Position numbers and translations under genes: made by a program. This document shows positions 2,587-28,627 of a DNA stretch of 64,000 nucleotides, piece by piece (the first letter of the stretch is position 1; each line of letters opens with the position of its first letter). This DNA comes from Panopea generosa (Eukaryota > Mollusca > Bivalvia > Adapedonta > Hiatellidae). The notes below the pieces were generated by a model, which saw only the letters and a list, made by a program, of their open reading frames with translations, did no database searches and was not told where the DNA came from. The stretch lies in the NCBI GenBank assembly GCA_029582155.1, contig CM055907.1, positions 10,949,874 to 11,013,873 on the forward strand, in the 5' to 3' direction.

Positions 2587-2871
2587 ATGCAAACTTCGTC
2601 GTTAATTAAAGGAAAACTTGCTTACGCTACCGCGCGCTGTCCGTACGGAAAATTCAGTTTAAAAAATATCTTACTTACTACTGTGGTTTTATTTTATATT
2701 TTGTGTTTCTCAAAGTTGCAAAATCAAAACGCCAGAACTTACGGCACAGTGCACAGCGTGTCACTTCACTGGAACTTTTCCGCAATGAACCGGAACCAGT
2801 GTCGGTCGTCAGTGGTGAAGCCGAGACAGAGAGGGACCGCCCTGTTACGCGTTGATAGCATTTTTGACGAG
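2587..2871 (+). CDS. CHST15-like: Sulfotransferase exon 1: start codon and membrane anchor
   Basis: 95 codons, ending in phase 0 at GAG|GTTAGT. It encodes a basic cytosolic tail, a hydrophobic segment (ILLTTVVLFYILCF) and a stem with an N-F-S sequon at residues 63-65. The link to exon 2 rests on matching phase, orientation and type II topology, so it is slightly less certain than the catalytic exons. Confidence 0.7.
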
Positions 2872-3715
2872 GTTAGTATACTAGCAGTGACTGGATAATA
2901 GAGACAGTCAGGGTCCAGTTGTTCAAAGCATGGTTAGGGTTAAGTGAAATTTTGTAACTTCAATATTTTCTATACTTAATGATTGTATGGCAATTTAAAT
3001 ACATTTTTAGAAACAAACTGGCTTATTTTCGTAATATTCAATAAAATAATAACCTATAAAGTTGAAAATCTTAAAAATAATGTGATTTGAAAATATCACT
3101 TAACCCAGGGTTAAGTTAACCAGGCTTTGAACAACTGGACCCTGGCTGATATCAATTCATCATGCACTGCTGAAATTTAGGGTGGCACCGTTTATCTTCC
3201 TTTTGAATTTAAATTATTACTGGTTGGAAACGAAAAATGTTTTACTAAATTTTTTTTTTTTTAAAAAAAAGTAATGTACACAATCGAACAAAATTAAAGC
3301 ATCTAAGATTACATACAACTTACATTTCATGTACAATTTGCCAAAGTAATTATCCTTCATGTGCTATGTTATCAACATTTAGTCAGGAGATGCCAGTTTC
3401 CCATCCTTCAATATAAGTCCTTGTCCAAAGGTAGCGATATCATCTTCTTACTTTTAAAATGGGCTAAAAATTAGAAATGACTACATATTTTTCGTTTCAT
3501 TTCTTTTAATTTAAAAAGAAAAGTGTATCACACTAAGTCCTTTCTTTTGATACATAACTACATATAACAGTATTGTATTGTCCAGTCCTGTTTCATGTTA
3601 TAATGCATATTATACTAGAAGTGGTATCAGCTGTATTGATTTTATTATAATTATCATCATCATCACCATCATAATCATAATCAGCAGCAGCAGCAGCAGC
3701 AGCAGCAGCACCACC

Positions 3716-3748
<33 letters not shown>

Positions 3749-3770
3749 GCCACCATCGCCACCATCGTCG

Positions 3771-3855
<85 letters not shown>

Positions 3856-4982
3856 TATCAATATCATAATTTTTATTAATTGTATTATTATCATTTGATG
3901 TAATGGTATCAAACTTCTTTTTCTTCTTCTTCTTCTTCTTCTTCTTCTTCTTCTGATTATGAGAATGATTAGTTTCAAATGCTCATCTTTTTACACTAAA
4001 TAAAACACTAACAGTGCTATTGGCAAGTTTATTATGTACTAGATAAAAAGTCATATTCTCGCTTTCAAATGTCACATCATTATATATTACCATACCACTG
4101 TCACCGAATTACACATCTGAGTATATCATATCACGATATAATATTTATAAATACACGGTATAATATTTCAAGGTATTATATGTCACAGTTTAACATGTCA
4201 CGGTATTACATGTCACGGTATAATATGTCACGGTATTACATGTCACAATATCATATATCACGGTATTACATGTCACGATGTTACATGTCACGGTATAATA
4301 TATATTACAGTTTTACATGTCACGGTATTACATGTCACGGTATTACATATCACTATATTACATGTCGCAGTATTACATGTAACGATATGAAATGTCATAG
4401 TATTACATGTCACGGTATAAGTTACACGGTATTACATGTCACGGTATTATATGTCACAGTATCATATATCATCGATGTTACATGTCACGGTATAATATAT
4501 ATCACGGTATTATATGTCACGGTATTACATGTCGCAGAATTACATGTCACATTATTGCATGTCACGGTACCATATGTCACAGTATTACATGTCACGGTAT
4601 AACGTATCACGGTATTACATGTCACGGTATTATATGTCACAGTATCATATATCACAGTGTTATATGTCACAATGATACATGGCACGGTATTACATATCAC
4701 AGTATAACATGTGACGGTATTACATGTCACGGTATTATATGTCACAGTATCATTTATGACAGTGTTCTATGTCACGGTATTATATGTCACGGTATAACAT
4801 TACGTATTATTACATGTCACGGTATTACATGTCACAGTATTACATGTCACGGTATCATTTGTCATAGTATATCATGTCATGGTATCATATGTCACATTTT
4901 CATTTAACACAGTATTAACTGTCATGGTGATACATGTGACGGAATTATATATCACGGTAATATTTGTCAAGGTATCTCTTTA

Positions 4983-5065
<83 letters not shown>

Positions 5066-8000
5066 AGTCTCTCTGAATTAACATTAAACATGTTAATAAT
5101 GTATTAAGACATATACCGTTTGTAATACCTGCTCTTTGACATTATTGTGTCCCGCCTATTTGGTTACATATGCAAACATGTTAAACCATTTACTGTTTGT
5201 TTTTTTTAAAAGTGTGTTTGCATTTGTATTTCACTTCATAGTATGTATATTTAAAAAAAACACCATATTAACCGTTAATCTAAATATATATAATGATTAT
5301 AATGTCAACACAGTTTTATACATCTTATGTCCCGCTAAAGGTTTTGCGAGTGTTAAAATACCTTCAATTGTATCTAAAAGTTTATGATTACGCTGGGAAG
5401 CGTCCCGATAGCATGCGAAAAAAAGATATTATTGAGAAAGAGAGAGGAGTGGACACACCAGCAAACAGATAGCCACTTTGATTGAGTTATTCCATCTTAG
5501 TTTAAGCATTTAAAAACATATGCATTGATTTTGACATAAGTTCTTACAACTCCATGTCCGTTATCGTTCTGGGTAGAATCAGTACTAAGCATAATTCTAT
5601 TTTTTCCTGTAAATTTAGTTTAAGCTAATCTATTTTAGCTCAATTGTGGAGAAAGTTCAGAGCTTATATTAACCGCTCTCGAGTCAATGTCCTGGGTAGA
5701 GCTTGTACTGAGAGCTGTTTTTGAAGAGGCATCGAACTAGCAACCTCTATCGTGAGCGGCCAACACTCTATCCATTACACTACCGCCAAGATTTTCTGTA
5801 AATATGACGATATCGTATAAACTTAATTTTATTATACACCGTTATCTTTTTCAGGGACCTTTTGAATTCCAGCGAAACTTTAAAAATCCGTGTTTTTATA
5901 AAAATTCCCTTTTTTCTAAAAGACTGCACTGTTTGCCATATTTTTATTTAATTGGATTTCCAAAATGTGGAACAACGGACTTATGGGATCGTATAATACT
6001 ACATCCGGAAGTGGTAGCCAATCACAATAAAGAATCCCAATACTTGGAGTATCAGAGATTTTGTGAGTATGATTTTTAATGTTTCTCATTGATGAGTTCG
6101 AATGCTCAAAAAAATTAACATGACCATTATCAGCGGTTAGATAGTCCCTTATGTGTCCCGTTGTATGGATATTAAAGAATTACTTATTGTTAAGTTTTCG
6201 AGGTTTTATTGAACCTTATCTGCTTTCTTTGAATATAGACGTCGATGTTTTTTTGTGTTTTTTTCTTGATATTAAAGAGGTATCACCTATAACTTTATGT
6301 TCAGTAAATGATGGAAAGTCTATTGAATCACAAAGAAGGAGGTCCCATACGTAGGTAATGGTTGATTCAGTCCAAGTAGTTCATCTTATTTATGAGAAAT
6401 TAGGCTTTAATGTCGGAAATTTCAGTTTTATTCGTCGATGTTTTAGCATGATCCGATACCTGCCAATGAGTGACATTATCGCGGACCGCAATTTAGAATT
6501 TTCGGTCACAAAATTACAAAATGTTACACTTCAGAGACAAAATAGAATATAAGTTATCTTTTAAATGTGAAGTTTGATATAAAAGTGAAGTTTTACAGCG
6601 AAGTTCAAAAATATTTCGGCGATACAGGCGAGGCCTCTTTAAAGATTTAGCTTTTGTTAAGTTTTCAAGGTTTTATTCTAACCAATCTGCTTTCTTTGAA
6701 TTGAGACGCCGTAAAACAGTTAAGCTTTGTCAAAAAGTGAAATATTATCATCGGTGTGACTCCTTGCTCTGTTTTTTTTTCTTGATTTTAAGTTCGCTTC
6801 GAAACTATACTTTAGTCCAGTATGTCAACTGAAGTATTACACGAAACTGCCGGTGCCCGGAAAACCGCGCCTGCTGGCTAAGCATTTCTCCTTTGTATAT
6901 TGTTTTCTTGTTCATTTCCTTTAAGTGCTTTGCTGTTGGTATTTTTTAGCGTATCTTGATATAGTTCTTCACTGTTTTTATTCGAATATGCACATACATG
7001 TATTTTTTACATTCTTTTATCATATCTTGATCTAGTTCTTCACTGTTTTGTTCGAATCTGTACATATATTTAACATTCCTTTATCGTATCTTGATCTAAT
7101 TCTGCACTGTTTTGTTCGAATCTATACATATGTTTTACATTCTTCTATCGTATCTTGATATAGTTCTTTGCTGTTTTGTTCGTATCTGTGCACATCTTCT
7201 TTTTGTCGTTATTTCTTGTCGTACTCCATTGGTAAAGCTCGTTGACGACTTCAATGTCTATCTGAACACATTATTTATTTTCGTATCTTTATTGTCCTCA
7301 TATTTTACTCCTCTTGCATTTTGCTGCCGTAAGATTAGCGCTGCTTTCTTGGTTTCTCTCGTTATTTACTCACGCAGTTCGTGTGTAAACTTTTGACAAC
7401 GTTGATCTACATATATATTTGCAAGGACTTATTTAGAATCCTTCTCCATAGAATTCCTCGATATTTGCAATCACATACTGATGCGTATTATGTTAAATAT
7501 TTCGAAACACATTTCAGTGACAGACAACAAGTGGACATTTGACAAATATCTGGAGTATCTGTCTCCAACAGCCGACGCAATATACCAGAATGGTTCAAAT
7601 AAACAAGAGGACGGTTACCACCACATGGTCACAGGTATGGATATTATGGACGCGTATTAGATATCGTATCAGGTATTCCTTCAATTCAAACAAAAATAAC
7701 TTTAAGTCTATGCTCAAGCATGCAATGTACTGATATCAAAATATTTAATAAAAACTTTTATACGATCATGATTGAGGCTGCCACCTGGATTGCGTGCAAA
7801 ACTCTAAATTTATAAACGTTGATGCGCCGCAACTGAACGTATTAAACGGAAATCTGGCTACTTTGGTACTGTCCCTACATTTCAACTTAAGTCACGCGAT
7901 TAAACTCATGAGCAAACAGCTCTCGAATTTATTTGCTTATGCTACCAAAACATGATAGTGAACACGTCGTTCAGTCGACTACCGAATGTTAGTTATATTA

Positions 8001-11000
8001 AATAAATATATATATATATGGTCTTGAACGAAGTCCCGTATTACGGTCAGTAATTGTGTTAATTGCTATTAGATGTTGTCCAACTTTTTTTAGCATACAA
8101 AATCGCTCAGATTTTTAAAAATAGTTAATTCCAATACAAATAGAATATCACGATCGTCAGAAGATGTTGACCTACTTTCTCAGCCAATGAAATCGCTCCA
8201 GATCAACATCTGAACCGGTTAGAAGTTAAATGGAATTTGTACTTGCGTAGAAAATTCCATACAACTTCTAACCTATATTCGGTGAACACAAATCAATTAA
8301 GTGGGATGCTGTCGGTATTACCAAACAGCTTTGGGTCGTCTGCTTTTGTAAAATTACATTGCTGAGTGTTTTTTAGTTTGAATTGGTTTAACGCCATTTT
8401 CAACACATTCCATCTTATATATGGCAAATCCAGTTTTACTGATGGGGAGGGGGGAGGGTGTGTATGTGTGGGTGTGTGGGTGTGGGCGAGGGGGTGTGGG
8501 GGCGTGGGTCCTCAGAATGAATCTGAGTAGAACCATCGTCCTACCGCAAGTAGCTGGCAAACTTTCTTACATGAAGTTTGTCAACCGAGTGGTACTCGAA
8601 CTTACGTTGATGAACTGACAGAGACGGGCCAAGCTGAAGTCGTCCATTCTCAACTTCATGTTCTCTTTGAATCCCAAGAGCCCGACGGCCAAACGTAGAT
8701 TTACGGTAATGTGTATGGGAATCAATATGTTAAATGTATTGACGTCGCGCACGGTAGTGGTACTTGCGTTATAAAACTAAAAACCGAAATATATAAAACT
8801 GTTCCCGAATACTCGATCGCTTTTGGAATTATACTTACTATATATCAAAATAAAGGTCGTGGAGCGATATTTGCAGTTGACGGATATAAGTTATGCTATT
8901 GATATGCTCTATATATTTAAATAGAATAATAAGTCACATTTAACGCCATTTTCCACGCGTCCCGGCGTAACATTTACCATGGGTCCCGGCCTAAAATGTT
9001 ATGGTTAAAAACGGTGCGTGGGGACAGACATCCGGTCTATTCACTGGAGAAAGTGACATCATTTCCGGTTACAGACATGTGTGTTGAAAAAAACCGACTC
9101 GTCAATAAAGTCATACTGAACAGTCAAAATGAAAAATATTGGTTGGTATTGCATTAAAATGTGTATGTATATGTTCATTGTTTTATAATATGGTACTTGG
9201 TGACTCTTTTCATATTGCGATTATGAGAAATTACATTTTAAGGTGTCCGCCAACGTTATTTGAAAGAAATAACTGAAACAAATTTGATTAATTTAATTAT
9301 TTTAGAAAAAATCCTGAACATATAAATTTTAAAATCATATCATACTAAAGTAAAATTTCAGTGGAACATGCTTATGTGGAATGAAATATGTTCACTTTAC
9401 TCCGAATAGTACAGATTTCGTATTTAAAATGTCTTCTATGATTTTTGCCGCCCCTTAGCATTTTTAACTAAAAATTACGTCTGTCCTCACATTTTGACCA
9501 TATAAACCATATTTTTTTACGCAGAATCTTGTCTTTTGAAAAATATATTAACGAGTAAATTTGTTTCTGTTAGTGTCCCAAAATATTAAAAAAATTGGAA
9601 AATCATTTATACCTCGTATCAAGCATTTCCGATGTCCTCTATCAAATATTTACAACGTCACTTTGGCGTTCTTTTGATACGGCGAAAACCTATGGACGCC
9701 GCTAGTTATGTACATGGTATACTGTATTCTCGTAGTTTACGTAGGTACAGTAATATTATTGATTTTGATACATTTAATATCCGCAGAAAATCACGATTCC
9801 ATTGCAGTAACCGATATACAGATATTCGGCTATTTTCTTGTCAATTAAATGATACAAAACGTCGACAATTTCAACGTTAGCGTCGTGTTACGCTTAGAGG
9901 TACCGTTACCTTGCGCGACGTCATTATTATACAATGCGTCGCTTTGTTCAATTTATGAAACATTACTGACTTGACCAATGATTGAAAAGCGCGAATTAGT
10001 ACAATAAATATCTAAATTACAGCGTTCGATAATAAGTCTTCTGTAAATTAAGGTAATTTATGCAGCGACTTAATTACACAGACTGGCAGACTTGTATCAA
10101 CATACGCGAATGGAATATCGGGTGGCACTTTTAATATTTCTTTAATAATTATTTGAACCTTTGTCTGAATTTGATAATTTTGGGACCAAAATAAAGCTGA
10201 TAAAAATGTTGACTACTAGTATTTCTAGTTATCAATAGTTATAAATTATTTAGGTTGTTTAGTAAATTTAAATTATTACGGATTGAAAAAAATGTACATC
10301 TTTAATATCTTTATTTTTAACACAAATAACAGTGTCCTCATCTTAACAAAAATAATTTAGCAGTACATCATATAAATAAAATAAATCATGTAAAATGGTG
10401 ATATAGTAAGTAGACCTAATCCATTGGTGACAAACATTTCATATCGATATTTAAAGATGTTATTTTATTTCTGACATTAAAAATGGGCTGAAAATGATCA
10501 CAAAAAAAAAAAAAATAACTGTTAACGTAAAAAATCTAATTTCTTTAAATCTAAAAAAGAAAAGTTCACCGCCCAAAGTTACAAAAACAAGTCATTTCAT
10601 GCCAAAATCACAAAATAATGTTGGTTGGTTCGGGAGGAGTTGTATTTCCATAATTTGTAAAACACCAAATGTACCGCCCGAAACTTAGACAAGCACCTGC
10701 AGTCACTCAGCTCTGTCTATATGTCTTTGGTCTATGTTTTCTTCTAACCGGATTACTTTATTGTTTATAAGTAGTATTGGCCATCGGCAACGCTTGCTAA
10801 CTTGTTTGAATCAACCAATCAAAGACGTTATCAATTTATCGTTACAATTTTATTTCCGGTTGACCTTGACAAGATGTTTGTCTTTCAGAAAAACAAGCGT
10901 CGCCGATGATCAAGACTAATTTAAGAGTTGTTCTTTCTTTGTGTGTTGTACAAGACATATTTTGAACAGGTGACGGGAGCGTGAATATAGCGGCTGTGAA

Positions 11001-12727
11001 CGACTTATGGCAATACCTACCAGAGAATGACGGATGTTCGGAACCCAGGATCACCAATGCTGATTACCTTAAACATATTAACCCGAATGTCAAACTGATT
11101 CTCATGATGAGGGACCCTGTGGACAGGTATCTGATCATACTAAACCGGGTAAAAAAATCTCAACCGTAAATACTCGGCCAATTCCGTCATCCTCCGGTAT
11201 TAGGATATGGTCCGAATGAAAGAATTTTAGGAAATATATGATGCTTTCAGTGGATTTAAATATTAAAATAGAACATTCTCGTCTCGTTCCTTGCTCGTTT
11301 CTCATAAAATAGAGAACCACCGTTCATCCGCAAATAACTGGCAAACTTTCTCACGTAATTGTTGGAACCGACCTGGACTCGAACTCACGACCTCAGCGGT
11401 CAGGGGTCAGCGGTCATCAGATGTCAGCGCTTTATACCAAACGGCCACGGATGACCCCAATAACTTACAGAGCTCGGAATTAATATTATTTGATAAACAA
11501 CTATTATAAGTATCATTTAATTAAAAGTGTATTCAACCATAGTTGATATTCTTGTGCTTGCAAATGATGAATATCTATAATATACATAATATACTGTAAT
11601 TGGATGTTTTTGCGTTATTTAACACTTTAGTGTTTTGAGGGCCTCATGGAAGATTAAACACATTGTCCAAATCAGATGTCTCGTGAAATGAAGGCTATAC
11701 TATTTTTTTACTCAGACTCTGGTCAGACTACCTGTATTTGGCGCCCGTTTTCCACTATACCACGAGTCCACAGACGTTCCATTACAACGCTGTCAATGCA
11801 ATTCAAAATTATAAAGATTGCTTAAAGTATTTTACACCGCGGGGATGTGCCTACAACTCGTCGATAGACTCACTTCAGGTAATGGTCGTTTGTTCTGTTG
11901 TTTATACAATATATCACCGTTAAACTATGCGGAAGGTGGCGGAGTCTAACACTGGTAGGGTCATATCATTTGACAACCAATGGAATAGCTTCAATTTTCA
12001 AATTTTTGTCGTCATTATTTGTTAAAACTGCCTACAAAATAATTTCGTTATTAAGAAATTCGTCATCACTGCGCACGCGTGAATGACATTTCATAGATTC
12101 CGCCCTTTTTCAATTCTGAACGAGTCATGTACAAATTAGTCTTAGCAACAGATGGCTTTCAAACGTCGATCATCTCAACTTTCATCGTAGCTCCGCCCAG
12201 AGTTACATAAACTGTCAGTCACATTACGTTTAATACTCAGCCAGCTAGTTTCCAAAAGTAAATAAAAAAAGGTCACTCCCTTTGGGTTTCTTAATTGTTA
12301 AATTTTTACTTAATACACACTATTACTTAAACATTATTACTGTATTTCATTGAAACAACAGAGAAACAGTCTAATTTCGGTCCTTATTATCTTGTTTTTA
12401 ATTCCTGAATATGGTTTTAATTGCCGAAATATCAATAAATCCAGGTGACCGATTATGAAAGTTTAGCAGAATATTAAACACTCCTAAACTTTCATAATCG
12501 GTCACCTGGATTTATTGATATTTCGGCAACATGGGTTTGTAAATGTCATATTTTAATCTACAATCTAATGAAAAGAATAATTGTGCATATTTTCCGAAAT
12601 TGAAACTCATTGAAATTCATAAAGCAATAAACATCATGTACCAAACATTTGGAATCTGAAACTTTCTGATACAAAAGCATCAGTGTTATTTATGTGGTTG
12701 TAGTAATATCTCAATCATCATCATAAC

Positions 12728-12768
<41 letters not shown>

Positions 12769-14435
12769 TTTCAGATGAGATTGAGAGTTGGTCTTTATGA
12801 AACTCACCTTTCTGATTGGTTGAGGGTGTTTCCAAGGCAACAAATGTTGATTATACGCACAGAAGATTATCACAAAAATGTGGAGAACGTTCTGAAAACA
12901 GTTTTCAGTTTCTTACAGATAAGTAAGTGATACGTATGTTGATTGTATGTGTTGTCAACAATACATTATAGTGAGTAAGCTCATCATCATACTGTTAAAC
13001 TGCCTCAGCCGCCTCTAAAATTCATTTCTATAATTCAGAAACTTTGTGTGCTGTTGTCATTTAACTTTCAGAAGAACTGCCAAAAGACGCTTTATAATTC
13101 CGTTTAACTTTAAGAAGAACTGCCAAACAACGCTTTATAATTTCATTTAACTTTAAGAAGAACTGCCAAAAGATGCTTTATAATTTCATTTAACTTTCAG
13201 AAGAACTGCCAAAATATGCTTTATAATTTCATTTAACTTTCAGAAGAACTGCCAAAAAGACGCTTTATAATTCCGTTAAACTTTCAGAAGAACTGCCAAA
13301 CAACGCTTTATAATTTCATTTAACTTTCAGAAGAACTGTCAAAAGATGCTTTAAATTTTCATTTAACTTTCAGAAGAACTGCCAAAAGATGCTTTATAAT
13401 TTCATTTAACTTTCAGAAGAACTGCCAAAAGATGATTTATAATTTCATTTAACTTTCAGAAGAACTGCCAAAATATGCTTTATAATTTCATTTAACTTTC
13501 AGAAGAACTGCCAAAAAGACGCTTTATAATTCCGTTTAACTTTCAGAAGAACTGCCAAAAAGACGCTTTATAATTTTGTTTAACTTTCAGAAGAACTGCC
13601 AAAAAGACGCTTTATAATTTCGTTTAACTTTCAGAAGAACTGCTAAAAGACGCTTTATAATTTCATTTAACTTTCAGAAGAACTGCCAAAAAGACGCTTT
13701 ATAATTCCATTTAACTTTCAGAAGAACTGCCAAAAAGACGCATTACAATTTCGTTTAACTTTCTCAGAAGAACTGCCAAATGACGCTTTATAATTCCATT
13801 TAACTTTCAGAAGAACTGTCAAAAGATGCTTTATAATTCCATTAACTTTCAGAAGAACTGCCAAAAGACGCTTTATAATTCAGAAACTCTCTTGTTATAT
13901 AGAAATGGGATACAAAACTAGGTTTATAGTAGGTCGAAATCTGTTTTCAATGTCAATAAAGCCTACAAGAAAATGGACGCTGAATTGCAAGATAAAACAT
14001 TGAAATTTTGGCTGCCATCTTGGATTTCGGGTATTTTGTCCATTATCGCCGGACCAAATATTTATACTCTGACCTATACTGGGTTCCAGGTATTTGTATC
14101 TACTAAAAACAAGCATGAGATCTTGGTGTCATTCTCATGTATGGTCAAGAGAAATTTCGTGAGGTTGAATCCGGACTATTTCATAAAAAAAACTGCATAA
14201 AGACGATTTAAAATTCAGGAACTCTAGGTGTACTGTTGCCATTTTACTTTCAGAGGAACTGCCTAAAGACGGGGTTGACGCTATTACAATGAACAAAAAA
14301 AGTAACGTGCAAACCAAGCACTCCGTTATGCTCGAGGAAACGAAAACACTTCTGTACGAGTTTTACGAGCCTTTTAATCGAAGATTGTCACTGCTGCTAA
14401 ATGATACACGTTTTTACTGGCACCGTCGACACTAA
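2587..14435 (+). CDS. CHST15-like: Carbohydrate sulfotransferase, CHST15 (GalNAc4S-6ST)-like, 7 exons
   Basis: Predicted Golgi type II membrane enzyme that transfers sulfate from PAPS to a sulfated glycosaminoglycan. Seven exons (2587-2871, 5855-6062, 7518-7634, 10970-11126, 11716-11878, 12775-12922, 14254-14435) join with matching phases into 419 residues. Seen: short basic tail, hydrophobic anchor at about 27-42, the family NPCFY segment at 106-110, 5' PAPS loop GFPKCGTT at 129-136 with Lys132, 3' phosphate motif RDPVDR at 251-256 followed by LWSDYLY with Ser259, and a C-terminal FYEPFNRRL-type helix. Human CHST15 is longer (about 560 residues); the difference is in the N-terminal stem. The ATG has A at -3. 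The poly(A) signal overlaps the stop codon. The exact acceptor sugar is inferred from family only. Confidence 0.88.
2909..3144. mobile_element. 236-bp MITE in sulfotransferase intron 1
   Basis: The terminal inverted repeats read CAGGGTCCAGTTGTTCAAAG at both ends, followed by a diverged inverted GGTTA...GTTAAGTGA segment. There is no coding capacity. It starts 37 bp after the exon 1 donor. No clear target-site duplication was seen, so the superfamily is left open. Confidence 0.75.
3180..3530. repeat. Dispersed repeat, family shared with 10050-10500 and 32829-33100
   Basis: Shared blocks include gaatttaaattattactg, gggtggcacc and a terminal aaaatgggctgaaaat/taaaaatt block in the same order. 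Divergence is high and the limits are approximate. Confidence 0.4.
3648..3955. repeat. Compound trinucleotide microsatellites
   Basis: A (CAT)n tract with internal (CAG)n near 3682-3710 and (CAC)n near 3711-3732 runs to about 3855, and a (TTC)n tract lies at 3916-3952. Long homopolymeric frames on both strands (Ile/Ser/Thr or Met/Val/Leu) are products of the repeat. Confidence 0.95.
4140..4975. repeat. 14-bp minisatellite
   Basis: About 60 units of tacatgtcacggta-type sequence, each holding the palindrome ACATGT and alternating variants (atgtcacagtat, atatcacggtat). Open frames on both strands follow from the repeat. Confidence 0.9.
4987..5063. repeat. (CT)n microsatellite
   Basis: Pure dinucleotide run of about 38 CT units following the 14-bp minisatellite. 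Confidence 0.97.
5660..5795 (-). mobile_element. tRNA-derived SINE fragment, family IV
   Basis: The minus strand reads as a tRNA-like head with an A box (gtgtaatggatagag) and a B box (ctagttcgatgcc), followed by a short tail. It ends 60 bp before sulfotransferase exon 2. Only one copy was recognised in the window. Confidence 0.55.
5855..6062 (+). CDS. CHST15-like: Sulfotransferase exon 2: 5' PAPS-binding loop
   Basis: The acceptor is a pyrimidine tract ending ctttttcag and the donor is TT|GTGAGT. Entry phase is 0 and exit phase is 1. It holds residues 96-164, including NPCFY and the PAPS loop PKCGTTDL, then HPEV and the NKESQYLEYQRF segment. Confidence 0.9.
6180..7200. repeat. Local duplications in sulfotransferase intron 2
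   Basis: A ~57-bp segment at 6189-6245 recurs at 6657-6715 (aggttttatt ... ctgctttctttgaat). About four diverged tandem units of ~65 bp (cttgatctagttcttcactg) fill 6950-7190. No coding role is seen. Confidence 0.6.
7518..7634 (+). CDS. CHST15-like: Sulfotransferase exon 3
   Basis: The acceptor is acatttcag|TG and the donor is ACAG|GTATGG. Entry and exit phases are both 1. It encodes residues 165-203, a polar, tyrosine-rich stretch ending HHMVT that links the PAPS loop to the central fold. It joins exon 2 through a split Leu codon and exon 4 through a split Gly codon. Confidence 0.82.
8200..8275. repeat. Short imperfect hairpin
   Basis: gttagaagtt..atggaattt at 8218-8238 pairs with an inverted copy at 8250-8270 around a short loop. 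It may be the core of a small palindromic element; flanks were not resolved. Confidence 0.4.
8395..8650 (-). mobile_element. tRNA-derived SINE, family II (minus copy)
   Basis: Reverse complement of the family II body: accagtaaaactgg-like tail, ctactcag, gacggtggttct-like block, cttgcggtagg and agtttgtcaaccgag. A G-rich (GGGTGT)n expansion interrupts it at 8441-8512. Open frames here are incidental. Confidence 0.6.
8651..10049. other. Intron 3 of the sulfotransferase, no gene recognised
   Basis: AT-rich intronic sequence. Several short open frames have no recognisable domain. Nothing was identified before the dispersed repeat that starts near 10050. Confidence 0.4.
10050..10500. repeat. Dispersed repeat (relative of 3180-3530 and 32829-33100)
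   Basis: Begins near gcgacttaattacacagactggcagact and carries aatttaaattattacgga, attggtg..aaacattt and taaagatgtta blocks in the same order as at 32829-33100. Boundaries are approximate. Confidence 0.45.
10970..11126 (+). CDS. CHST15-like: Sulfotransferase exon 4: RDP 3'-phosphate motif
   Basis: The acceptor is ttttgaacag|GT and the donor is GACAG|GTATCT. Entry phase is 1 and exit phase is 2. It starts GDGSVN and ends with NVKLILMMRDPVDR, the start of the 3' phosphate-binding motif of sulfotransferases. Confidence 0.9.
11290..11460 (-). mobile_element. tRNA-derived SINE, family II (minus copy)
   Basis: The minus strand reads tccgtggccg...tttggtataaagcg..., a B box gagttcgagtcc, then gtgagaaagtttgccagtta and cggtggttct. 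It lies in intron 4, between exons 4 and 5 of the sulfotransferase. Confidence 0.7.
11716..11878 (+). CDS. CHST15-like: Sulfotransferase exon 5: SDY motif
   Basis: Two AGs are available (11714-11715 and 11725-11726). The first keeps the frame and completes RDPVDR-LWSDYLYL, so it was chosen. The donor is CTTCAG|GTAATG. Exit phase is 0. Conserved cysteines appear in KDCLKY and GCAYNSS. Confidence 0.9.
12421..12529. repeat. Perfect 46-bp inverted repeat (hairpin) in intron 5
   Basis: Arms at 12421-12466 and 12484-12529 are exact reverse complements over all 46 bases, separated by a 17-base loop. A transcript would form a long uninterrupted stem on either strand. A very young MITE-like element or a hairpin RNA precursor are both possible. 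Confidence 0.9.
12728..12766. repeat. (TAT)n microsatellite next to exon 6 acceptor
   Basis: About 13 trinucleotide units lead directly into tattttcag, so the run forms part of the polypyrimidine region of the exon 6 acceptor. Confidence 0.95.
12775..12922 (+). CDS. CHST15-like: Sulfotransferase exon 6
   Basis: The acceptor follows a (TAT)n run and reads tattttcag|ATG. The donor is ATAA|GTAAGT. Entry phase is 0 and exit phase is 1. It encodes VGLYETHLSDWLRVFP and MLIIRTEDYHKN, typical of the second half of the CHST15 fold. Confidence 0.9.
13022..13885 (+). repeat. 43-bp array of 3' splice site plus exon start
   Basis: About 19 units, each tttaactttcag followed by aagaactgccaaaagacg and ctttataattt. 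The first 12 bases match the true acceptor of exon 7 (tttactttcag at 14243-14253) and the next 17 match its coding start. Entered in the gene's phase, units with AAAAGACG read K-E-L-P-K-D-A-L-stop. Units with one extra A shift frame. The sequence before the array (attcagaaac...gtgctgttgtca) also matches the sequence before exon 7, so the array grew from a duplicated intron-exon junction. Confidence 0.9.
14254..14435 (+). CDS. CHST15-like: Sulfotransferase exon 7: C terminus and stop
   Basis: The acceptor is ttttactttcag|AGGAACTG with entry phase 1. It encodes KELPKDGVD through LLYEFYEPFNRRLSLLL to the TAA at 14433-14435. The first ~17 bases and the preceding acceptor are the source or relative of the 43-bp tandem array in the intron just upstream. 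Confidence 0.9.
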
Positions 14436-14439
14436 TAAA
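14434..14439 (+). terminator. AATAAA poly(A) signal overlapping the stop codon
   Basis: AATAAA begins with the last two bases of the sulfotransferase TAA. No other canonical hexamer was noticed in the next few dozen bases, so the 3' UTR may be very short. Confidence 0.5.
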
Positions 14440-14599: not shown

Positions 14600-17500
14600 A
14601 CATACGCTTCTAGATTTCATATTTGTGTTACAAACGATTTGTGATATAAACATTCAAAGATGTCACATCTATGTTTCAAATACTTCTCTAGAGGACATAG
14701 CTACACTACAAATAATTCTAGATATCGCCTCTATAATACAAGCACTTCTATATATGGTAAAGCTACAACACAAACAATTCTAGATATCGCCTCTGTGATA
14801 CAAGCACTTCTATAGATGGTATAGCCACAACACAAACTACTTCTAGATATCGCCTCTATGATACAATCACTTCTATTGGTGGAAAAGCCACAACACAAAC
14901 ACTTCTAGATATCGCCTCTATGATACAAGCACTTCTATAGATGGTATAGCCACAACACAAACACTTCTAGATATCGCCTCTATGCAATAAGCACTTCTAT
15001 AGATGGTAAAGCCACAACACAAACACTTCTAGATATCGCCTCTATGATACAAGCACTTCTATAGATGGTAAAGCCACTACACAAACACTTCTAGATATCG
15101 CCTCAATGATACAAGCACTTATAAAGATGGTATAGCAACAACATAAACATTTATAGATATCGCCTCTATGATACAAGCACTTCTATAGATGGTATAGCAA
15201 CAACACAAACACTTCTAGATATCGCCTCTATGATACAAGCACTTCTATAGATGGTAAAGCCACAATACAAACACTTCTAGATATCGCCTCTATGATGCAA
15301 GCACTTCTATAGATGGTATAGAAACAACACAAACACTTCTAGATGTCACCTCTATGCTGCAAGCACTTCTATAGATGGTATAGCCACAACACAAACACTT
15401 CTAGATATCGCCTTTATGATACAAGCACTTCTATAGATGGTAAAGCCACAACACAAACTACTTCTAGATATCGCCTCTATGATACAATCACTTCTATTGG
15501 TGGAAAAGCCACAACACAAACACTTCTAGATATCGCCTCTATGATACAAGCACTTCTATAGATGGTATAGCAATAACACAAACACTTCTAGATGTCACCT
15601 ATATGATTCAGTCACTTATATAGATGACATAGCCACTATAAAACACTTCTAGATGTAGCCTCTATGACGCAAACACTTATAAAGATGACATAGCCACTAT
15701 AAAACACTTCTAGATGTCACCTCTATGTAGCAAACACTTATATAGATGACATAGCCACTATACAAACACTTCTATATGATGCAAACTTTTCTATAGATGA
15801 CATAGTCTTAATACAAACACTTCTAGATGTCACCTTTATGATACAAATTCTTGTATAAATGACATAGCCGCAACTAAAACACTTTTAGACGTCACCTCTA
15901 TGATGCAAATTCTTCTATAGATGACAAAGTCACAATATAAACACTTTTAGATGTCACCTCTTTGATGCAAACTCTTCTATAGATGACATATTCAAAATAT
16001 AAACACTTCTAGACGTCACCTCTATGATGCAAACTCTTCTATAGAGGACATAGTTGCAATACAAACACTTCTTGATGTCACCTCTATGATGCAAACACTT
16101 CTATAGATGACATAGTCTTAATACAAACACTTCTAGATGTAACCTTTATGATGCAAATTCTTGTATAAATGACATAGCCGCAACTAAAACACTTTTAGAC
16201 GTCACCTCTATGATGCAAATTCTTCTATAGATGACAAAGTCACAATATAAACAATTTTAGATGTCACCTCTTTGATGGAAACTCTTCTATAGATGACATA
16301 TTCAAAATATAAACAATATTTATCACCTCTATGATGCAAACTCTTCTATAGATGACATAGTCAAAATACAAACACTTCTAGATGTCACCTCCATGATGCA
16401 AACACATCTATAGATGATATAGCGACAATAAATACACATGTAGACGTCACCTCTATGATGCAAACATTTCTATAGATGACAAAGTCAAAATACAAACACT
16501 TCTAGACGTCACCTCTATGATGCAAACACTTCTATAGATGACATAGTCAAAATACAAACACTTGTAGACGTCACCTCTATGATGCAAACATTTCAATAGA
16601 TGATATAGCCGCTGTACAAACACTTCTATATGATGTAAACATTTCTACAGATGACATAGTCAAAATACAAACAATTCTAGACGTAACCTCTATGATGCAA
16701 ACTCTTCTATAGATGACATAGTCAAAATACAAACACTTATAGACGTCACCTCTATGATGCAAACACTTCTATAGATGATATAGCCGCTATACGAACACTT
16801 CTATATGATGCAAACATTTCTATAGATGACCAAGTCAAAATACAAACACTTATAGACGTCACCTCTATGATGCAAACTCTTCTATAGATGACAAAGTCAA
16901 AATACGAACACTTCTATATGATGCAAACATTTCTATAGATGACCAAGTCAAAAAACAAACACTTATAGACGTCACCTCTATGATGCAAACTCTTCTATAG
17001 ATGACAAAGTCAAAATACGAACACTTCTATATGATGCAAACATTTCTATAGATGACCAAGTCAAAATACAAACACTTATAGACGTCACCTCTATGATGCA
17101 AACTCTTCTATAGATGACAAAGTCAAAATACAAACACTTCTAGACGTCACCTATATGATGCAAACACTTATATAGATTACATAGCCACTATACAAACACT
17201 TATAGACGTCACATCTATGATGCAAACACTTCTATAGATGACATAGCCTCAATACAAACACTTCTAGACGTCACCTCTATGATACAAATTCTTTTATAGA
17301 TGACATAGTCAAAATACAAACACTTCTAAACGTCACCTCTATGATGCAAACTTTTCTATAGATGACATAGCCTCAATACAAACACTTCTAGACGTCACCT
17401 CTATGATACAAATTCTTTTATAGATGACATAGTCAAAATACAAACACTTCTAAACGTCACCTCTATGATGCAAACTTTTCTATAGATGACATAGTGTCAA

Positions 17501-18175
17501 TACAAACACTTCTAGATGTCACCTTTACGATGCAAACTCTTATATAGATGACATAGTCGCAAAATAAACACTTTTAGATGTCACCTCTATGATTCAAACT
17601 CTTCTATAGATGACATAGTCAAAATGCAAACATTTCTAGACGTCATCTCTATGATGCAAACTCTTTTATAGATGACATAGTCAAAATACAAACACTTCTA
17701 GATGTCACTTCTATGATGCAAACTCTTCTATAGATGACATAGTAGCAATATAAACACTTCTAGATGTCACCTCTATGATGCAAACTCTTCTATAGATGAC
17801 ATAGTTAAAATACAAACACTTCTAGATGTCACCTCTTTGATGCAAACACTTCTTTAGATGACATAGTCAAAATACAATCACTTCTAGACGTCACCTCTAT
17901 GATGCAAATATTTCTAAAGATGACATAGTAACAATATAAACACTTCTAGACGTCACCTCTATGATGCAAATTCGTCTATAGATAACATTGTCGTAATATA
18001 AACACTTTTAGATGTCACCTTTATGATGCAAACTCTTCTATAGATGACATAGTCAAAATTCAAACACTTCTAGACGTCACCTCTATGATGCAAACATTTC
18101 TATAGATGACATAGTAACAATACAAACACTTCTAGATGTCACCTCTATGATGCAAACACTTCTATAGATGACATT
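14600..18175. repeat. ~60-bp minisatellite, two subfamilies
   Basis: About 3.5 kb of head-to-tail units built on acacttctagatgtcacctc and tatgatgcaaacacttctat. The proximal part (to about 15600) uses agatatcgcctctatgatac and gatggtatagccacaac. The distal part uses agacgtcacctctatgatgc and gatgacatagtcaaaatac. Some distal blocks of about 115 bp are duplicated as higher-order units (16790-17110). Open frames are repeat products. Confidence 0.93.
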
Positions 18176-18355
18176 CCATACAGTCGCAAGGTAAATAAGA
18201 TTGGATCTGACCATACTGGTGTAGGAATTTGTCTTTGTGTCCTCATTTGCTGACTTCATATTTAGCCTCAGAAATCCTATCACGTTATTTGCTTTTTTAG
18301 CTACCCGGTAGATATGTATTTTCCAGGTAAGGGCTGTCTTATTATCGAATTCCAT
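18176..18355 (-). pseudogene. LINE reverse-transcriptase C-terminal fragment
   Basis: The minus strand translates as LTWKIHI then KKANNVIGFLRLNMKSANED and YTSMVRSNLIYLATVWN, the thumb/connection region of CR1/L2-like LINE polymerases. The same region in degraded form lies on the plus strand near 20960-21110. It is truncated by the minisatellite. Confidence 0.7.
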
Positions 18356-18666
18356 GTAGGCCTACTTGGTAACAGTGAGATATATTATTACATGTAATCA
18401 TGTTTTCGAGGACGCATCCCTTCAAAAGGCATGGGTGCTTGTAGTCTAATTTAATCGCCGTAAAAGGGATGAGAATAGACCTGTAGAGGACGATCAAATA
18501 AAAAAAAAAAAAATTATTCGACAACGTGCTTTGATAATTATACACTAAGTCAGTCATATTTCAACACTTCATACTCCAATGTACCATTGCCTCAGTCCTT
18601 CTCATTCACAAGATTATTATCTTACCATGCCACTCAGAGAAGCTAACGTTCGACACGCCAGTACTA

Positions 18667-19473
18667 GTGCAGCACAAGACTACTATCTGTCTCTCAGCCC
18701 AGTTCATAACTAGCATGAAGCTACTCATGGGTAAAGCCAAAGGTCCAGTTTGTCGTAACAAACATGTGCTACTATACCTCTGCTCCTTTTTGCTCACAGA
18801 ATCGTATGCACCCGAACCTAACTCCGGTCCTAGAATCCTAAAGTTCCCCTGCGCCATATGCAGCAAAGCATGCAAGTTGACTACGCCTTGTGTTTGCTGT
18901 GATACATGTGCCAGCTGGTATCACCAAGAATGCATGGGCATGTCAGAAATGGTCTTTAAGGCACTCACCAACTACAGCTGGGGATGTGTTCAGTGTGTGC
19001 TCCCAAACTTCTCCACAGGCATCTTTGACACAACACTATTTGAATCCAGCAACAGCTTCGCCAACGTGAGTGACACTTCCAATATCGACAGTGAGATCAG
19101 CTTCAGCTGCCCCAACGCCGCCTCATTACCACAACGACGGCACCATAGCTCCAACGCAGACGGCCAAAGCGGGAAACGGGATGACTTGCCACTCAGAGTC
19201 TTCAATGTTAACTGCCAGTCCATAAAGAGTCAAGGAAAGAAGGCGCAACTAGAAAACATAATCGCGTCAACACAAGCTAACATTGTTATCGGCTCTGAAT
19301 CCTGGTTAGACAGCAGCATCAACTCCTCTGAAGTTTTCCCACCATACTTCAAGCCTTACCAATGCGACCGACAGGATAGATCCCAGGGTGGAGGAGTATT
19401 TGTACTAGTTTCAAACACATACTCAAGCGATGAGCCAGCTGAGCTGGTGAGACTGCGAGGTGGTATGGTGTAA
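18667..19473 (+). pseudogene. LINE ORF part 1: PHD finger plus endonuclease start
   Basis: 268 codons. A Cys4-His-Cys3 PHD finger (CAIC ... CVCCDTC ... WYHQEC ... CVQC) at about residues 60-108 is followed by an APE-like endonuclease start (VFNVNCQSI ... IVIGSESWLDSSI). The frame breaks near 19460; the endonuclease continues in other frames as GTQDLYVGPFYKPPSKTDP and then from 19590. Confidence 0.8.
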
Positions 19474-19505
19474 GATAAAGGTAAAAGGTACCCAGGACCT
19501 GTACG

Positions 19506-20138
19506 TTGGCCCTTTTTACAAGCCTCCATCAAAGACAGACCCTGAATACTTTGAATAACTTCACATCTCCCTCTCTCTCTCGAATACTAAGAGGAGCACA
19601 TCTCTGGTTAGGCAGCGACTTCAATCTAGCAGACATAGACTGGGTCAACGAATGTCCACAGCCTCAAGCTCAACATATGAAGCAGTGCCAGCAACTCATA
19701 GATATTTCAAGAGATGCCTTCATTGAGCAGATTGTGGACAAACTCCACAGTATACATTATACACGCATCACAGAGTATACAAGTAATCTGCTAGACCTCT
19801 TCTTCACTAACGACAAGTCACTCATTAACCGCTGCAAAGTCCTCCCAGGCATACCCGACCATGAGGCTGTATTCATAGAGTCGAGTCTTCGTCCTATGAG
19901 AGTGAAGAGGCCAGCCAGAAAAGTACTCCAGTTTAAAAAAGCTGACTGCGATGGCATCAGAGATGAGCTGAATACCTATCTACCACAGTTCACTGAAGAA
20001 ATAGCCAGTAGCTCAGTAAATGACACATGGACTAACTTCAAAAAGAAACTCCAATCCCTGGTCAGCAAGTCCATTCCATCAAAGCTAATCTCTGGAAATA
20101 AGATCAACAAACCAAACCATGGATCACTAAAGGCGTAA
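19506..20138 (+). pseudogene. LINE ORF part 2: endonuclease C-terminus
   Basis: WLGSDFNLADIDW is the catalytic GDFN-type motif of LINE endonucleases. LLDLFFTNDKSLI and GIPDHEAVF supply the conserved D-H pair near the end of the domain. The first ~25 codons are out of frame relative to the true protein. Confidence 0.8.
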
Positions 20139-20307
20139 AGTCCCTCCACCGAAAGAGAAAAAACTGTTTTCAAAACAGAAGGCATCAGGCCAACAGAAAG
20201 ATAGGAGACAATACCAACAGGAGAGGTTCAAGGCAAGCAGCCACAGACCTGTGTCCCTCACCTGCATACCGTGTACGATGTTGTAACACATCATTGTCAG
20301 CAACATA

Positions 20308-20940
20308 ATGCGACACCTTGACAGACAAACTATTCTCACTGACTGCCAGCACAGGTTCAGAAGACGACGAAGCTGCGTAACTCAGTTACTTACACTGACC
20401 GGCGAACTTGTCAGATCACTGGACCGAAAGCGTCAGCACGACCTTGCAGTTCTAGACTTCAGTAAAGCATTTGACCATGTACCGCACAGTCGCCTGCTCA
20501 CCAAGCTTCACCATTATGGCATCAGGGGCTATACCCTGAACTGGATTGAAGCCTTCCTGACAGGTTGAACACAGCGCATAGTAGTTGATGGGGCAACATC
20601 CGAGTCGGCACCCGTTATAAGCGGCGTCCCCCAGGGAAGTGTCCTTGGACGTATTCTGTTCCTCATCTTCATCAACGACCTACAACTACAGGTGTCATCC
20701 GAATCAAGACTTTTTGCTGACGACTGTGTGGTGTACAGGGAAATCAACTCTGAACAGGACTGTCTAATCTTACAGGATGACCTGAACAAGCTAGTGGATT
20801 GGGAGAAACGCTTGGGTATGAGCTTCCGTCCAGAGAAGTGCAGTATCTTTCGTGTCCATCGCAAGGGAACACCAATTACATATGAATACTCTCTGAAGGA
20901 CCACACACGATACAGATTCAGTAACGAAGTACCTCAGAGT
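20308..20940 (+). pseudogene. LINE reverse transcriptase core
   Basis: Continuous frame apart from a TGA at 20566-20568 in LTG-stop-TQRIVVDG; the family residue is usually Arg, so a CGA to TGA CpG transition is likely. Motifs: [37 protein letters not shown] (catalytic DD) and LGMSFRPEKC. N-terminal RT blocks are deleted. Confidence 0.85.
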
Positions 20941-21480
20941 GCTCATATCCCAGAACTTCTCGTGGAACTACCATATTGACAAGACTGAAGAAGAGTAACA
21001 GCACGCTCGGCTTCCTTCGACGCAACCTACGTACCAGCAATGAAGAGGTAAAGGGTACGGCCTATAAAACACTTGTGCAACAAAACCTGGAGTATTGTTC
21101 CACAGTCTGAAACCCGTACACCAAGGACTAGACACACAAGCTGAAGATGGTTCAGCGGAGAGCTGCCAACGACCTTGTGGATATACCAGTCAGCCAGTAC
21201 CTCACCCCAGCCCAGGGACATACGAGATCCTCCCACTCAAGGAAATTCCGCCAGCCCTCTACATCCACATCATACTACAGAAACTCATCATCTTTCCGCG
21301 AACAACTTCAGTATGGAACAGCCTACCTGCCGGCGTAGCAGACGCCCCTGGCTTGATATCCTTCAAGCAGGAGCTATCAACACTCTTATTCTAGTCCGTA
21401 GGGGTCCAGCAACAAGTAGTGTTTAGTGATTCATATTGCTGTGCCGGCAGCGGCCACCGTAACCGGAGAGGACTGGGTTG

Positions 21481-26865: not shown

Positions 26866-28627
26866 CAAAGTATAACAGTTTATATCAATTAATTAAGATT
26901 AATTAGGTTTCTTTGATCTTTTTTTAAAATATATTAGTTATAGTTTAAAACTGATAATTGATACATTGAAAAAGACAAGATTAACAGTTTGCAAGCAGTT
27001 TTCTTAATTAAAACTGATAATTGATACACGATGATGATGTTATTAAAGAAATAAGATTAACAGTTTGCAATCAATAGTGTTAATTTATTGGTATTTAAGT
27101 TTACTGTTTATCTTTTTGAATACTTTGATGTTTCATATAAATTCAACTGAGCAATATCTAAACAAAGAAATATTTATTTGAGTATATTAAAGGCGATAAT
27201 TAATGTATTAAAAACAAGATACAAGACCATTAATTTTTATATAAATTGATACTGATATAATTTAGTTTCATTTGTGTACACGATTATCCTAGATACATGT
27301 AACATAATGGCTAATGCACAAGTACAAATACGATTTGTTAATAATCAGAAAGGTGGTGAAAGTCTTTTGATAGGTGGATTCAGATTAAATGTAAGTATAC
27401 TTTTTGACGGTGAAATGTATCCGCTAGTATTCGCGTTTCTCCCAGGAAAATCAACTGACGTCTACGTGAAATTTTTCAGCCAACTAAAACAGAAATGTGA
27501 GGAGTACGGTTTTGAACTTCAACCTGAAACTGTATTTCTAGACCACGAGGTGGCTTCCCGTAACGGCGCACAGAGAGTTTTTCCAGACACCAATGTGAAA
27601 GCTTGCTTTTTTCATTACACACAGTGCGTTTGGCGAAAAGTTCAAGCTTTAGGACTCTCTACAGCCTACAAGGAAAATGACACAATCCATCGACTGGTTA
27701 GACGAGCATCGGTGTTGCCATTAGTTCCAATAGCTGAGGTAGAGGACATTTGGTTTCAAGCGTTAGAGGCCATATGGGAGGAGGATCTTCCTGCGAGCGT
27801 TACTGCCTTCACAGACTACGTAACAGAACAGTGGGTTGAGGGTGATAAGCCAATTTGGAATCATTATACAACCGTGGGTCCCAGGACAACAAACCATTGT
27901 GAAGGGTGGCACAGTAAATTGAAGAAGGCCGTACGACATGCCCATCCAAACATCTTCGGTATCATTTCCATACTACAGCGGATTGAAGCTGCTTGCTACA
28001 TTAGGGTTCTTCAATACCAGGCAGGGGGCGTTCGTCCAGTCAAAAAAAGAAAGTATCGTCAGCCCGAGCAAAGACTAGCAGCCCTGAAAACACGTTTGGA
28101 AAACGGAGACATGACGGCGATGGAATACTCTGACGCAGCATCGCAACTTCTTGAACATCATTAGTGATTGATTGACTGATGAGTACTGCAGATGAATCTG
28201 TGTTTAATGACTTGAACATGCGTTCATACGTGTATATATATTTGTGACAATAGAAAATATATATAAATGTAAAATATTAAAAAAACTTTCTAATTTTCAT
28301 ATTCCTGAAACCCTGAAAAAAAAGAAGAAAACTATAATTAATTTATTAATGTTCAATTATAATATTGCCTGTTTTAATGTAAAAAAAGAAGATTTTTATA
28401 AGTTAACATTATAATATTAAATAAAATCCATTAAATTATCCAAAAAAAGATGATATAAATGTATAAAAAAACTTGTCTTGTTTTATTAAATCATCCTAAG
28501 AAACAGACTATAGCTATAATTTGACCTAAGGCCGTAGGAAGGTGTTAATTGGAAAAAGCAAAATTCCTGAAACTACCCACTTTTTTTTTTATCAAAATTT
28601 GAAAAGTGGGGGTTTCAGGAAGACACC
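26558..28627 (+). mobile_element. Mutator-like element (MULE) with TIRs and 8-bp target duplication
   Basis: A 2070-bp element. The target duplication TTGGTGAA is at 26550-26557 and 28628-28635. The ends are inverted relatives: gatttattcctgaaacaccc and ggtgtcttcctgaaaccccc, both followed by cacttt. The core motif ttcctgaaac..cccacttt recurs in tandem about three times inside the left end (26563-26650) and again near 28302 and 28562. A ~60-bp direct duplication (aactgataattgatac ... attaacagtttgca) lies at 26948-27080. The element carries the transposase frame at 27274-28164. It inserted into a copy of repeat AB whose uninterrupted paralogue is at 24183-24430. Confidence 0.85.
27274..28164 (+). 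CDS. MULE transposase, N-terminally incomplete
   Basis: 296 codons, intact to TAG. Family landmarks: MYPLVFAFLPGKS (about 49-61), the second acidic site in VFLDHE with the following NGAQRVFP, ACFFHYTQCVWRKVQ (the C-x2-H region after the second Asp), LPLVPIAEV, and TTNHCEGWHSKLKK holding the third acidic residue. The expected DGTFK segment with the first catalytic Asp is absent: the matching place reads GGFRLNVSIL and several residues before the PLVFA block are missing. The usual N-terminal zinc-finger part is also absent. The frame may start upstream of the chosen ATG through splicing (an AG lies at 27264-27265), but no upstream exon was found. Probably catalytically dead but still open. Confidence 0.8.
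   Translation: MYTIILDTCNIMANAQVQIRFVNNQKGGESLLIGGFRLNVSILFDGEMYPLVFAFLPGKSTDVYVKFFSQLKQKCEEYGFELQPETVFLDHEVASRNGAQRVFPDTNVKACFFHYTQCVWRKVQALGLSTAYKENDTIHRLVRRASVLPLVPIAEVEDIWFQALEAIWEEDLPASVTAFTDYVTEQWVEGDKPIWNHYTTVGPRTTNHCEGWHSKLKKAVRHAHPNIFGIISILQRIEAACYIRVLQYQAGGVRPVKKRKYRQPEQRLAALKTRLENGDMTAMEYSDAASQLLEHH

Follow-up and report, generated by a model that had tools for sequence, protein, structure and literature searches.

Intron 6 of a CHST15-like sulfotransferase gene in the bivalve Panopea generosa contains 19 near-identical splice acceptors in tandem ahead of the real one, each followed by sequence resembling the start of exon 7. We read this array as a near-neutral minisatellite derived from the intron 6/exon 7 boundary, with the true acceptor used in most transcripts through exon definition and with some leakage into truncated forms, and we give this reading a probability of about 0.72. 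That it arose as a minisatellite copying an intron/exon boundary is nearly certain, and its neutrality is likely. All positions refer to the window, the whole 64,000-nt stretch of DNA that was analysed.

The host gene and its intron 6 array

The gene lies on the plus strand at 2587-14435, and its seven coding exons (2587-2871, 5855-6062, 7518-7634, 10970-11126, 11716-11878, 12775-12922 and 14254-14435) join in frame into an intact product of 419 aa. The product has a Pfam Sulfotransfer_1 domain (E 4.5e-17) and collinear homologues, consistent with its assignment as carbohydrate sulfotransferase 15-like; the nearest named homologues come from Mercenaria, Potamilus and Mytilus, and the closest of the 84 homologues is a Mercenaria CHST15-like protein with 50% identity over 85%. 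Exon 6 (12775-12922) ends with one base of a split codon at the donor TAA/GTAAGT, and the true last exon, exon 7 (14254-14435, acceptor AG at 14252-14253), aligns with homologues and holds one split codon, 59 whole codons and the stop. An AATAAA at 14434-14439 overlaps this stop codon and, if it closes the exon, would make it about 200 nt long.

Other features of the window include a 22-bp array at 1174-1798, with long ORFs in three frames of the minus strand, and, downstream of the gene, about 57 tandem copies of a 62-bp unit (14658-18174), which a minus-strand ORF (18083-18361) joins, by eye, to retroelement-like sequence. Retrotransposon-like pieces occupy 18538-20979, where the ORF at 18538-19470 has a PHD finger that narrowly passes its cut-off and a reverse transcriptase fragment lies at 20287-20565, and the ORF at 27256-28161 has a MULE transposase domain.

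The intron 6 array extends from 13057 to 13880 on the plus strand (TRF: period 43, 19.0 copies, 91% matches), and counting by anchors also gave 19 units, in agreement with the roughly 19 tandem acceptors claimed in an earlier note on this DNA; the array itself was correctly located there, but the interval given, 13022-14260, was too wide. In each unit, of 42-46 bp, an acceptor is followed by some 18 nt resembling exon 7 and then, in most cases, by CTTTATAATT. The 18 spacings between units (43 bp in 11 cases, 44 in five, 42 and 46 once each) all fall within 42-46 bp, and therefore no unit has been missed. Every one of the 19 units reads AG followed by AAGAACTG, the true counterpart at 14252 being AG followed by AGGAACTG. 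The typical acceptor is CTTTCAG, after which comes sequence like AAGAACTGCCAAAAGACG, differing from the exon's own AGGAACTGCCTAAAGACG at 2 of 18 positions; units u2 and u3 (13100-13185) have CTTTAAG in its place, at 13113 and 13156, and are the two such units that had been reported.

The AG and the eight exon-like bases after it are unchanged in 19/19 units, forming a block of ten invariant columns, which either selection or recent homogenisation would produce, and in the latter half of the exon-like part the units differ. Altogether 16 different versions occur among the 19 units, some inner ones being identical copies (u4 = u10, u5 = u11 = u15), and the alignment does not set u1 apart as clearly more divergent than the others. 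The block u3-u6 resembles u9-u12, suggesting block duplication.

Origin of the array and a second array in paralogues

The best copy of the true boundary (14209-14271) is the first unit with its long upstream flank (13029-13089), which matches it at 84% over 63 columns, bearing out the proposal that the repeat copies the acceptor and the start of exon 7. This pair had a local score of 75, whereas none of 2000 first-order Markov resamples scored above 34, and chance similarity between array and exon 7 is thereby ruled out. The exon-like part of the last unit continues into a piece of the long flank (13853-13890), and an older, degenerate copy of the same exon-like end and long flank lies shortly before the true acceptor (14188-14225), matching it at 32 of 38 positions (score 46, the resampled control having been made for another pair). 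This copy and other intron sequence make up the stretch 13881-14253, the 373 nt between the end of the array and the true exon. Together, the long first copy and the older degenerate one suggest that the boundary was duplicated more than once.

The sequence shows directly how the array is built, that it is homologous to exon 7, how strong the decoy motifs are and that paralogues hold a second such case; neutrality, the acceptor used and the order and mode of expansion are inferred. The intron 6/exon 7 boundary was almost certainly duplicated in tandem into a minisatellite, a longer copy of about 60 bp probably coming before the 43-bp form, which may be a shortened boundary copy that later expanded, probably by slippage or unequal exchange. 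A dispersed repeat carrying the unit is unsupported, as a two-unit query against the whole genome (1.47 Gb, 39 contigs) matched nine places among the best candidates, which alone were scored, all of them within the window array. When the 14 exon ends of the gene were compared with the whole window, no tandem copy of any other boundary was found. Four exon ends besides the acceptor of exon 7 gave other matches, including microsatellite matches for the acceptor of exon 6, an inverted one at a distance of 193-340 nt and another near 32.8 kb for the end of exon 1, and one distant inverted match for the end of exon 5.

Exons 6-7 as a query matched 17 places in the genome, two of them the host gene itself, and the 10-kb regions around the 15 others were examined. 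Clustered CHST15-like paralogues on one contig (C3) carry a second boundary array, at the loci L031, L032, L033:3554-4589, L034:4687-4981 and L036:3980-4346. Its units, of 57-59 bp, join an acceptor to some 35 nt of the exon that encodes APIYTSFYIVHL and corresponds to exon 6, and the true exon forms the final unit; this array thus sits at a different exon and differs in sequence from that of the window. The five paralogues have 10, 3, 17, 4 and 5 decoys, and the profile counts 39 decoys and 5 true units in total, two weak partial units being left out (L036:3951-3995 and L033:3530-3555, E ~0.0002-0.0003). The range of 3-17 decoys between the loci suggests that copy number changes freely there. 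The unit is common to all five, and these arrays look like a single event, probably inherited, with lengths altered since.

The AG is kept in 38/39 of the C3 decoys and is among the less variable column pairs, yet 10 of the 56 pairs of adjacent columns, AG among them, are equally low in variation across the 37 distinct decoys, so the conservation of the AG is no clear evidence of constraint. The reading frames of the 39 decoys are erratic: six are in frame and open, 29 carry a stop, three are shifted without a stop and one lacks the AG. The six in-frame decoys would add residues in multiples of 19, and an exact tandem 19-residue repeat was found in none of the 84 homologous proteins.

Splice signals, predicted products and competing explanations

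On an acceptor matrix built from 34 sites (of 51 candidates, rule-picked from homology hits of the same genome and including near-identical paralogues), 13 of the 19 window units narrowly outscore the true site (11.2-12.6 vs 11.0), and all 19 rank within the best 24 of the 76 AGs in intron 6. Every decoy also lies upstream of the true acceptor and closer to the donor. With decoys that outscore the true site and are nearer the donor, regular splicing needs an explanation, which we can offer only as an inferred one.

Joining exon 6 to the units is predicted to give an eight-residue tail and then a stop in 12/19 cases; a majority of KELPKDAL tails had been expected, and this was right in length and only loosely so in wording, the exact letters occurring in 4/19. 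From the remaining seven units the tails would be 18-40 residues long, read in another frame or through the position of the stop: one (13331) has lost the TAA, and six have an extra A, shifting the frame as foreseen. Use of any decoy would remove 54 residues, among them F396 and Y397, which are nearly invariant among 16 aligned sequences. Two further motifs follow the array. An AATAAA at 13955-13960, 75 nt past it, is a possible end of an alternative last exon, though by our estimate the odds are about even that the intron stretch after the array would hold one by chance. A donor-like CAG/GTATTT at 14087-14095 agrees with the consensus at 7/9 positions, as do five of the six true donors, and might serve at 14089 to end a poison exon. 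On paper, then, decoys could give either an alternative last exon or a poison exon.

These observations can be accommodated in several ways. The array might be a selected decoy or dosage cassette, whose acceptors steer a fixed fraction of transcripts towards a truncated enzyme or decay, in a ratio set by its length. The high decoy scores, the similar eight-residue tail from 12/19 units, the loss of F396 and Y397 with the other truncated residues, the AATAAA and donor-like site at hand and the ten invariant columns would all suit such a role. However, 7/19 units would give quite other tails, the C3 decoys are erratic in frame and unexceptional in AG constraint, and a KELPKDAL-like pattern was matched in 0/84 homologues (although none of these is from the host gene). 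None of our tests, on AG conservation, decoy frames or boundary placement, showed selection for function, and we hold this explanation to be improbable. Still less credit goes to a bolder version, in which the array would function as an alternative last exon whose 19 acceptors are equivalent, array length tuning the balance of active and inactive enzyme, and the C3 series a similar device evolved a second time. Were it true, splicing from 12922 to any of the 12 units, with the AATAAA at 13955 as the end, would yield nearly identical truncated sulfotransferases with the tail KELPKDAL or close to it.

Frequent but unselected use of the decoys, with truncated or unstable transcripts tolerated thanks to related genes, is unlikely, though it deserves more weight than a selected role. 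The comparable acceptor scores, the shorter distance to the donor and the 15 other matching places in the genome speak for it, but the best of those other matches is only 51% identical, which makes redundancy doubtful, and the amphioxus arrays known as mirages are reported to leave splicing undisturbed (PMC3087553, PMC3902484). Tandem arrays are prone to misassembly, and an assembler could have invented the array or its copy number; the 19 units are of 16 kinds, however, and the same type of array occurs in five paralogues of the same assembly, and we regard an artefact as very improbable indeed.

A neutral satellite is the reading best supported by the amphioxus precedent, the C3 case with its unexceptional AG conservation, and the depletion of arrays at boundaries described below. 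The earlier note had raised both this option, in which a neutral satellite would have taken up a splice site, and a decoy or dosage role; the first now has the best support and the second is improbable and unsupported. As a near-neutral minisatellite, the array would still be expanding, and splicing would mostly pass over the decoys to the acceptor of exon 7, in spite of their equally good motifs. The most likely cause is exon definition, in which the short true last exon would be closed by its own poly(A) signal at 14434, with some leakage into the truncated forms.

Frequency of boundary arrays and known systems

By a fixed rule, copies were found at 7/99 boundaries of the CHST15 family, namely the five C3 arrays and the loci L028, where the copy is weak (69-70%), and L038. 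The latter has a single 59-nt copy (321-518 and 1606-1664, 93%) overlapping the donor-side end of an exon hit, a possible donor-side boundary duplication. The same rule found copies at 0/22 boundaries in an unrelated family, myosin, sampled as 11 of 81 myosin-head hits (11/13 hits in two regions, the two with internal stops being excluded). Minisatellites make up 13.6% of the window and, taken together, 21.4% of the 15 paralogue loci, unevenly so, with 0-55% across single 10-kb loci, and 1.4% and 0% of the two myosin regions. At L030, tandem arrays of several kinds make up 55% of the 10-kb paralogue region.

Among 136 tested places, which are the ends of homology hits or modelled exons with gene start and stop included, five lie within arrays, against 16.4 at random placement, and none of 5000 draws was as low. 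All five represent a single orthologous boundary in C3; since it ends before exon 7, the window array does not enter this count. At up to 100 nt from arrays there were 6 boundaries against 20.1 at random, and at up to 500 nt 34 against 34.3. The depletion is largely expected, since the tested places edge or sit within coding sequence, and out to 500 nt from boundaries arrays occur as often as chance predicts. No mechanism directed at splice sites is needed to account for these data.

The window array most likely belongs to a kind already described for lancelets. Amphioxus mirages are minisatellite-like tandem duplications across an intron/exon boundary, in which many units keep the AG or GT and copy number varies; they are reported at Adh3 (there by citation), the globins BflGb6 and BflGb9 and other loci, with Adh3 units of 10-72 bp, and the view that they do not disturb regular splicing draws on Adh3 data and globin RT-PCR (PMC3087553; also PMC3902484). 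Units of both the window and the C3 arrays likewise span an intron/exon boundary, and most keep the AG (19/19 and 38/39). Mirages are further marked by homogenisation of inner units that spares those at the border; identical inner units occur in the window array, but its u1 does not stand clearly apart. One parallel is BflGb6 (PMC3087553), in which, as here, the 3′ end of an intron is duplicated together with the 5′ part of the next exon; its haplotypes have 6 and 3 units of 150-160 bp, whereas the bivalve gene has 19 decoys of about 43 bp, with a paralogue series of 3-17 decoys beside it, and is probably spliced regularly. Lancelet PGBD5, another gene in another phylum, has 60- and 108-bp repeats over splice sites, the 108-bp unit being present only three times, and troponin C is cited in the same context (PMC3902484). 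Internal tandem repeats in human genes of segmental duplications, with four 30-bp units on average and about half of them in coding sequence, are likewise minisatellite expansions; at exon-intron boundaries they may switch on cryptic splice sites and give rise to new introns (PMC2812944). The abalone TSSK1-like gene shares with ours an intronic minisatellite in a mollusc, of 27 bp and polymorphic in length; splice-site copying is not stated in the portion of that report used here (PMC6905558). Our literature search, mostly at the level of titles and abstracts, returned no mollusc report of a boundary-copying minisatellite.

Taken together, the window and C3 arrays suggest that boundary-copying minisatellites are not special to lancelets. 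This natural gene with 19 near-identical acceptors ahead of the real one, and the C3 paralogues as a ready series of 3 to 17 decoys, make it possible to test directly, in the RNA of one animal, how a single 3′ splice site is chosen among equals.
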